A DNA stretch of 64,000 nucleotides, taken from Olsenella uli (GTDB lineage Bacteria > Actinomycetota > Coriobacteriia > Coriobacteriales > Atopobiaceae). The notes under the pieces were generated by a model. That model was not told the origin of the DNA. It ran no database searches and saw only the letters and a list, made by a program, of their open reading frames with translations. A program made the translations under genes and the position numbers. Each line of letters starts with the position of its first letter. Position 1 is the stretch's first letter. Below are positions 24,557-25,868 of this stretch, one piece after another. The stretch covers positions 1 to 64,000 of the forward strand of contig NZ_CAAKON010000041.1 of the NCBI RefSeq assembly GCF_901212655.1, read 5' to 3'.

Positions 24557-25375
24557 ATGGCGTTCGACGGCGTCTTCGCCTTCCAGGGCAAGGACCACAT
24601 CACCGCCTCGCAGCTCGGTCGCATCGTCGAGGGAGTCGCCGGCAAGGGCCGCTACGTGCTGCCGACGCTGGACCAGATGACGGCCGAGATGCAGACCGCG
24701 AACAAGGTGCGCGTCTGCACCGGAGACCTTGTCATGGACGGCCGCGTGGTCACCAACGAGGCCGCGGTCGACCTCACGGTCGAGAGCGGCACGTCAGGCT
24801 ACAAGCGCAACGACCTCGTTGTGTGCCGCTACACCAAGAACGCATCCACCGGCGTCGAGAATTTCGCCGCAGAGGTGGTCAAGGGCACGCCCACCACCGG
24901 CACGGCCGCGGACCCAAAGGTGACCGAGGGCGACATCTCCAGCGGCTCCGCAAGCGCCGTGATGCCGCTGTGGCGCATCCCGCTCAACGGCATCACGCCC
25001 GGCGCTCCCGTGAGGATCGCGCCGGTGGCGTCGACTCTGAAGACCCTCGGGGATTCCGTATCCCGGGTTTCCCCTGTCAAGCTTGCCGTCGGGACGACGG
25101 TCATTAAAGTCGGCGAAAACGTCTTCTGGGACCTGATGAGCTACAGCGAGGCCGCAAGCGAGCTGGGGTGCTCTGTCGCGGACTTCGCCAAGAGCGGCTT
25201 GCCCTCGGCGCGCCTCGCCTGCTTCGTCAGCAACGGAGACCCGTCCACGAAGACCGTCGGTGCCATGCACGCCGAGTTCGACGACTCGCGGAAGATGATC
25301 CGCGTTCAGTTCGGGCAGGTGGTATCGAGCTTTCTGCGCATCAACTGGATGCTCGCGCTGAACACGAAGGTCTAG
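24557..25375 (+). CDS. Variable tail-tip/receptor-binding protein, tip A expressed
   Basis: 272 residues. Residues 1-166 are constant: an N-terminal baseplate-attachment segment (FDGVFAFQGKDHITASQLGRIVEG) and a beta-rich shaft ending at APVASTLKTLGD. At codon 167 (SVSRVS) the gene enters the 20-bp repeat at 25053-25072, and residues 173-272 are a replaceable tip ending RINWMLALNTKV. Two other tips lie inverted downstream, each beginning with the same SVS codons. ATG 24557 is chosen over GTG 24548. The stop at 25373-25375 overlaps the stop of silent tip B on the other strand. Confidence 0.85.
   Translation: MAFDGVFAFQGKDHITASQLGRIVEGVAGKGRYVLPTLDQMTAEMQTANKVRVCTGDLVMDGRVVTNEAAVDLTVESGTSGYKRNDLVVCRYTKNASTGVENFAAEVVKGTPTTGTAADPKVTEGDISSGSASAVMPLWRIPLNGITPGAPVRIAPVASTLKTLGDSVSRVSPVKLAVGTTVIKVGENVFWDLMSYSEAASELGCSVADFAKSGLPSARLACFVSNGDPSTKTVGAMHAEFDDSRKMIRVQFGQVVSSFLRINWMLALNTKV
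25053..25072 (+). repeat. Inversion site 1
   Basis: ATTCCGTATCCCGGGTTTCC, codons 167-172 of the tail-tip gene. It is a perfect 20-bp inverted match to site 2 and shares the first 12 bp with site 3. Confidence 0.88.
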
Positions 25376-25557
25376 AGCGCCCTGACGTTGTTCCCGTCGA
25401 CGTAGAACCTAAGATTCTTACCGTCCCACGAGATGCCGATGGCGTGAACTCCCGGGCGCGTGTAATCGTCAAGCAGCTTCGCCATGTTCGTTGAGTTTGC
25501 CGCTTGATTCGCTTTCGCTTCTGCAGCGTCCGCCTTTGCGGAAACCCGGGATACGGA
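25372..25557 (-). other. Silent tail tip B
   Basis: Reading leftward from site 2 in the same phase as the expressed gene gives 61 codons: SVSRVS, then a coiled-coil stretch (AKADAAEAKANQAANSTNMAKLL), then a short beta end (GISWDGKNLRFYVDGNNVRAL). It has no start codon of its own and so should be expressed only after inversion. Its stop (25372-25374) overlaps that of tip A. Confidence 0.8.
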
Positions 25558-25559
25558 AT
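25540..25559 (-). repeat. Inversion site 2
   Basis: Perfect 20-bp inverted copy of site 1. Tip B begins here on the minus strand. The stop of tip C is at 25561-25563, two bases from the site. Confidence 0.88.
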
Positions 25560-25560
25560 G

Positions 25561-25866
25561 CTAGATCGTGTACGTCAGCGATATGTCGACGGTGCCCCAC
25601 GTCAGCGTGTCCTTGCCGTAGCGGTGAATCAGCTTGACGACGCCGTCGACGTCGATGGACACGATGCCCCACGACGTGTCCTGCGTGCCGAAGATGGCCC
25701 GGGCAGGAACCTTTGGACGGTAGGCGGTTTTAACGGAGCCGACCTTTATGCCTTGGGTATTAGTGAGCGCATCGTTTCCCGCGATATGCACCGTCACGCT
25801 GCCGCCGCGCGCCGCTCCCTCGACGAGGAGGCCGTCGAAGGCATGAGTCTCTATCGGGGATACGGA
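25561..25866 (-). other. Silent tail tip C
   Basis: Reading leftward from site 3 in phase gives 101 codons beginning SVSPIETHAFDGLLVEG, with a beta-rich body (GGSVTVHIAGNDALTN, TSWGIVSIDVDGVVKL) and ending TWGTVDISLTYTI. It has no start of its own in this orientation; a longer leftward frame through it is a by-product of the recombinase gene upstream. Confidence 0.8.
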
Positions 25867-25868
25867 AT
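25857..25868 (-). repeat. Inversion site 3
   Basis: ATTCCGTATCCC on the minus strand, the 12-bp core shared with sites 1 and 2, preceded by GC as at site 2. It lies 4 bp beyond the recombinase stop codon. Confidence 0.8.

Follow-up and report, generated by a model that had tools for sequence, protein, structure and literature searches.

We report that, in the 64-kb stretch of DNA analysed here (that is, the window), a prophage very probably carries a three-tip Rin shufflon at the end of its tail genes. In the mechanism that we propose, the neighbouring recombinase, Rin, would recombine site 1, inside the gene for the receptor-binding protein, with one or other of two inverted sites: recombination between sites 1 and 2 would flip the segment holding tips A and B and join tip B to the constant part of the gene, and recombination between sites 1 and 3 would flip the entire cassette and join tip C instead. 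As the site encodes an SVS hinge between two domains, each of these junctions would stay in frame. The original prediction, made from the letters of the window, had read the cassette as a shufflon-like system of inversion, and this reading is supported by the adjoining recombinase, the same design in 24 other arrays and an inversion between two related loci (L057 and L059), which together argue for site-specific inversion.

Anatomy of the cassette

The exact 12-bp core ATTCCGTATCCC occurs three times in the 64 kb, at 25053 (+), 25548 (−) and 25857 (−). The constant gene contains this short asymmetric repeat, and each variable tip is preceded by it (Table 1). When up to two mismatches are allowed, five matches are found in the window against 2.8 expected, and thus only the exact copies of the core stand out. 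No other exact inverted repeat within 1 kb in the window reaches the length of the 20-bp pair formed by sites 1 and 2, and the longest in 20 dinucleotide shuffles measured 12–15 bp. Both the 20-bp inverted copy and the recurrence of its 12-bp core, as originally predicted, were reproduced at the same coordinates, with all three sites exact. In its present state, the window lacks a second direct site just past the 3′ end of the full-length gene because tips A and B converge tail to tail; such a site depends on state and array, and we do not count it as a defining feature of a Rin shufflon.

Table 1 Features of the cassette and its surroundings (window coordinates)
Feature	Position	Strand	Remarks
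Minor tail protein gene, upstream	22059..24323	+	PHROG 538, E 3.9e-67
Constant part (Rc) of tail-tip gene	24557..25051	+	About 165–166 residues; frame continues via site 1 into tip A
Site 1 (rix-like)	25053..25072	+	12-bp core 25053–25064 within 20-bp repeat
Tip A, currently joined to constant part	25054..25375	+	106 residues from SVS
Tip B	25372..25557	−	61 codons leftward from site 2, from SVS; stop 25372–25374
Site 2	25540..25559	−	Core 25548–25559; perfect inverted copy of site 1 over 20 bp
Tip C	25561..25866	−	101 codons leftward from site 3, from SVS; stop 25561–25563
Site 3 (core)	25857..25868	−	3 bases from recombinase gene; 14 bp common to site 2
Rin-like tyrosine recombinase, 289 aa	25872..26741	−	PF00589 E 2.9e-15, PF14659 E 1e-7
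Frame with endolysin/amidase gene, downstream	27217..28212	+	PHROG 1794, E 7e-38
tRNA-Lys beside prophage end	28561..28636	−	Candidate attachment site

The tail gene (24557–25375, +; 272 codons encoding 272 amino acids) reaches site 1 at codon 166, and among its listed protein relatives the change from conserved to variable sequence falls at the site (TLGDSVS). By predicted fold, its constant part matches the receptor-binding protein of phage 1358 and, when tested as the N-terminal domain of a receptor-binding protein, it fitted that role. The tail-tip protein is probably the protein with which the phage grips its host, and the tips would bind receptors and set which host is bound.

Tips B (61 codons) and C (101 codons), each starting with SVS, lie in the phase of the tail gene and, together with a constant part of 166 residues, agree with the original description. 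The further statement that neither has a start codon of its own holds strictly for tip B only, and the frame of tip C is open for 122 further codons upstream of site 3, with possible start codons there; this extension overlaps the recombinase gene, out of frame with that gene. The convergent tips A and B have overlapping stop codons within a shared CTAG (25372–25375), which makes A plus B one flippable segment and C the other. The TAG stop of tip C is found one base before the core of site 2, and no pair among the three tips is alike at E ≤ 1e-5.

The decisive neighbour, which the original prediction left out, is the tyrosine recombinase gene situated between the tail and lysis genes. Its product comprises a core-binding domain (PF14659, residues 3–57) and a catalytic domain (PF00589, residues 134–268), an arrangement that leaves no room for an arm-binding domain. 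R137, K175, R234, H257 and Y267 are present and invariant in 27 of 27 aligned relatives. Tyrosine recombinases usually carry a His three places before the second catalytic Arg, and this residue (three places before R234) is missing in all 27 Rins compared. Judged by its sequence and position, the recombinase is the probable invertase of the cassette, and we infer that it performs the inversion in the window.

Natural proteins with the three joined forms

A protein search scored on residues 1–166 yielded 340 relatives, and all counts given here are from the 120 listed. Tip A is found in P0003 (100% tip identity; near-identical constant part), P0021 (92%) and P0002 (88%). In P0006, a constant part 98% identical to that of the window is joined to tip B (61 of 61 residues), and in P0004, a constant part 99% identical is joined to tip C (95% of 101 residues), so that both of the fusions to residues 1–166 that had been proposed as a test of inversion occur in nature. 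Residues 1–169 are mutually identical in P0002, P0003 and P0004 and differ from the window by E44N and C54G; P0006 carries K121N beyond these two changes and is one residue off P0003 and P0004 over the same stretch. Such near-identical constant parts on tips A, B and C indicate that a single phage lineage can be found carrying any of the window's three tips. Near-identical constant parts are named from Olsenella uli, Paratractidigestivibacter and an Atopobiaceae metagenome, and the entries for P0001, P0003 and P0006 state no source in the protein search.

Constant parts at least 93% identical to that of the window are found in 94 of the 120 listed proteins, and the 92 listed proteins that combine such a constant part with a tip of at least 30 residues fall into 68 tip groups at 90% identity, 36 at 50% and 18 by any similarity. 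In a scan of viral contigs, neither tip B nor tip C was found on contigs other than the nearest record (G001/G398, G398 being the record that matches the window's prophage), which is 100% identical to the window across 8,388 compared bases, has the same orientation (that is, state A) and is probably not independent of the window.

The presence of state A alone in the window and in this near-identical record would also be seen if the anatomy were real and relatives switched, with Rin or the sites inactive here and the gene fixed in state A. Locked versions probably do occur, as in the Bifidobacterium phage PMBT6 (L108), in which the recombinase-side site (4877–4890) is altered to TTTCCGTAATCA and the intact copies of TTCCGTAACCC (at 5294, 5585 and 5887) all point in one direction; judged by these spellings, the PMBT6 array may be locked. 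In the window, all three sites are exact, the 289-codon frame of Rin is open and the five catalytic residues are present, and we therefore consider a frozen cassette unlikely here. With an active shufflon as the preferred reading, we infer that the window's strain switches, and a single lysogen might shed a mixed phage population.

Prophage setting and separate integrases

Besides the genes of Table 1, the prophage carries genes for a RecT family protein, a terminase, a minor capsid protein and a tape measure, as well as Dit-like genes. The tRNA-Lys gene beside its end is the likely, although unproven, attachment site; a second copy of the 3′ end of this tRNA gene was not found within the window. 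It appears that the window cuts the prophage on the left, with the left end lying outside. Past the tRNA genes, 30645–33254 encodes a large surface-type protein in which SpaA prealbumin-like folds occur together with a T-Q ester-bond domain, and genes for dnaA, the DNA polymerase III beta subunit, an SMC/RecF-type ATPase and gyrB follow at 53.9–60.9 kb. Short tandem repeats are located between the prophage and dnaA at 48009–48041 (TCGAGACA units) and 47789–47811 (ACACAGA units).

In some relatives, Rin is distinct from the phage integrase: of 14 related records, 5 have a separate integrase at their far end, namely a serine integrase in G399 and G404 and a second tyrosine integrase in G402, PMBT6 and ctl617. 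On this ground, we rejected as the main explanation the reading that the recombinase is the prophage integrase and that the repeats are either attachment-site remnants or the substrate of a different enzyme. Annotation leans towards such a reading (the Rin-type gene is labelled 'integrase' in PMBT6 and ctl617), as does the failure to find a second integrase (PF00589 or PF07508) in G398, G400, G403 and G405, where the Rin gene stands alone. However, these four records are probably fragments, and the arrays adjoin the Rin gene in 24 of 25 cases (the 25th, L057, ends before the gene). We regard the integrase reading as very improbable as a whole, if less clearly so for the window's own prophage.

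Related arrays

The last bases of the constant part and the core are present in 14 viral contigs. Relatives of Rin at E ≤ 1e-40 occur in 18 of the 396 genomes of the class of G002 (19 genes), and the 19 loci comprise 15 arrays with at least two sites, three with a single site near a contig end and one without a site. The non-redundant set to which the following counts apply holds 25 arrays, that of the window included, with 98 sites; excluded from it are L096, L101 and L104 (one site near a contig end), L105 (no array), the single-site loci L052, L055, L061 and L063, and duplicates of the same record.

Across these 25 arrays, 93 of 96 closed cases have a frame of at least 50 codons in the tail-gene phase; for the other two phases the figures are 9 of 98 and 39 of 97. 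Of 48 same-direction neighbours, 40 have a stop codon no more than 6 bases from the next site, and in convergent tip pairs the stops overlap by exactly four bases in 11 of 24. That a CTAG supplies both stops of converging tips may reflect tight packing or another constraint. In arrays for which both ends are available, the first site faces the recombinase gene, and the last, beside that gene, faces back. Two Rin contigs begin 3 and 1 bases past a site, as seen from the recombinase, and P0023 (marked partial; one of the 120 listed proteins) ends at the site; such breaks may be the trace left by an assembler when several orientations are present in one sample.

Tips of different arrays are similar in 43 pairs at E ≤ 1e-5 among 101 tips (including four single-site genes), which indicates that tips do move between phages. 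Although this similarity might suggest that B and C are decayed tip copies produced by ordinary recombination or by horizontal exchange, with no site-specific inversion involved, the frames open in one phase with stops abutting the next site (40/48), the use of B and C by natural proteins and the recombinase gene beside the array make this extremely improbable. The constant part, for its own part, is not tied to the shufflon, as in 16 of 18 viral loci with a constant-part relative the stretch compared contains no more than one copy of TTCCGTAT (that spelling alone being sought).

Comparison of close relatives points to inversion as well as to gain and loss. L057 and L059 are 92% identical over the 482 bases running into site 1, and a 708-column stretch that spans two sites, with its outer end at a site, is inverted between them at 87% identity; within this stretch, one tip is 96% identical over 109 residues and the other is partly alike. 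A single flip of the whole array was rejected as the difference between L057 and L059 given that the remaining tips do not match, and more than one change must therefore separate these loci. L063 and L056 are 91–92% identical on both sides of the cassette, and L063 keeps site 1 without sites 2 and 3 and without the recombinase, showing that the cassette can be gained or lost. Both L052 and L063 have a single tail gene with one site, and neither an array nor a recombinase adjoins it. The original prediction had pointed to close relatives with an intact single tail gene and no repeats as a case that would count against it; the one instance of this kind lies in a remote lineage, L052 and L063, with a constant part about 35% identical to that of the window.

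Several further features of individual arrays were observed. In L005, a stretch within the tip array and between two sites (6242–6361, +) matches Rin residues 248–287 (70%), suggestive of a recombinase-gene end that was captured by the array. In L102, the first and last tips (at 6198, +, and 7136, −) are identical (57 of 57 residues) and belong to a longer inverted duplication. Two contigs of the genome IMG 2854117342 share a tip start at 95% DNA identity (L025, 2961–3154; L061, 14176–14369), with constant parts 34% and 46% identical, respectively, to that of the window; on the evidence of the shared stretch, tips may have been exchanged between co-resident prophages. The genome G055 carries two Rin genes (L099 and L101), 43% and 42% identical to that of the window, both with the core ATTCGCTGTCCC.

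Spelling of the sites

The core ATTCCGTATCCC is used by 17 arrays, in three of which (L005, L051 and L058) the first A is replaced by T at some sites. The eight other arrays have eight spellings: ATTCTGTATCCC, ATTCCATATCCC, ATTCCCTATCCC, AATCCGTATCCC, ATTCCTTATCCC, ATTCGCTGTCCC, ATTGCTTGTCCC and ATTCGGTAGCCC. Spelling is almost uniform inside an array and differs from array to array. Three of the eight spellings were identified as exact repeats, which in itself accounts for part of their uniformity; five spellings are one base off the common core, so that a common-core site would be detectable in those arrays, and none was seen. Extra copies at up to two mismatches in L027, L051, L058 and L103 differ at the CCC end and not in the middle, and L094 has one weak match (again at up to two mismatches) that differs in the middle.

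The overlap rule of tyrosine recombinases holds that partner sites must match each other rather than a fixed sequence, and it predicts just such a pattern of uniformity within arrays and difference between them. We tentatively suggest, at somewhat less than even confidence, that the middle of the site may act as a per-array code, with Rin requiring its partner sites to match each other and not one fixed sequence. An Rci-like asymmetry of the site, with a right arm that reads CCC throughout the spellings observed, is a possible reason for inversion only, but the left side is partly conserved as well: a purine is found at −4 in 98 of 98 sites and an A at −1 in 92 of 98, conservation that is due in part to stop codons.

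Comparison with known systems

Rin shufflons have been described in the Bifidobacterium prophages Bb423phi1, Bl157phi1 and Bl30698phi1, with inversions in both prophage and virion DNA and several orientations in one virion sample (PMC6109161), and clade-1 prophages of Eggerthella lenta carry a rin shufflon with the asymmetric repeat ttccgtat (PMC8778435). The E. lenta system resembles that of the window in having a tyrosine recombinase, distinct from the integrase, beside small variable genes and a large gene with a constant part, with copies of the repeat in and around these genes; its 8-bp rix, ttccgtat, is contained in the window's 12-bp core (PMC8778435). The window differs from it in having three tips only, in a host that is probably a member of the Atopobiaceae, and in lacking, in its present state, a site at the 3′ end of the full-length gene.

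The Bifidobacterium constant part has 168 residues, against 166 in the window, and its tips have 95–100 residues; the recombinase consists of core-binding and catalytic domains only, as in the window, and the constant part matches the phage 1358 receptor-binding protein by HHpred, whereas the match of the window's rests on predicted fold (PMC6109161). The Bifidobacterium repeat reads TTCCCTAACCC, compared with TTCCGTATCCC in the window, and five tips are possible there instead of three (PMC6109161). PMBT6, which has the same layout, encodes a recombinase 42% identical and a constant part 43% identical to those of the window.

Further afield, the R64-type plasmid shufflon shares several inverted short sites, in-frame exchange of C-terminal tips and a tyrosine recombinase (PMC11852207). 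Rci and sfx of R64 nevertheless serve a pilus adhesin, with a 7-bp sfx core and 12-bp arms, and we liken the two systems by their way of working alone (PMC11852207). In the Gin, Cin and Min systems (of Mu, P1 and p15B, respectively), inversion likewise changes the tip of a phage tail protein (cited in PMC6109161), but their enzymes are serine recombinases, unlike the tyrosine recombinase (PF00589) encoded in the window. The excerpts of PMC6109161 and PMC8778435 made no mention of the three natural states, of how large the tip pool is or of the array-specific spelling, and we make no claim on the literature as a whole.

Implications

Our findings add a compact three-tip version, in Olsenella-like hosts, to the known Rin shufflons and provide natural-sequence evidence for each of the three states of the cassette. 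The occurrence of a close Rin relative in 18 of 396 class genomes, together with the 36 tip groups among the listed proteins, suggests a wide system, in which automatic annotation labels Rin-type genes 'integrase' and unjoined tips hypothetical proteins. The arrays also constitute a natural data set for a point left open in PMC6109161, namely how such systems come to favour inversion and to avoid deletions between direct sites. If the middle of the site does serve as a per-array code, each lineage may drift to a spelling of its own, and such spellings would bar recombination between co-resident Rin prophages, whereas prophages sharing one spelling could trade tips from a large common pool.
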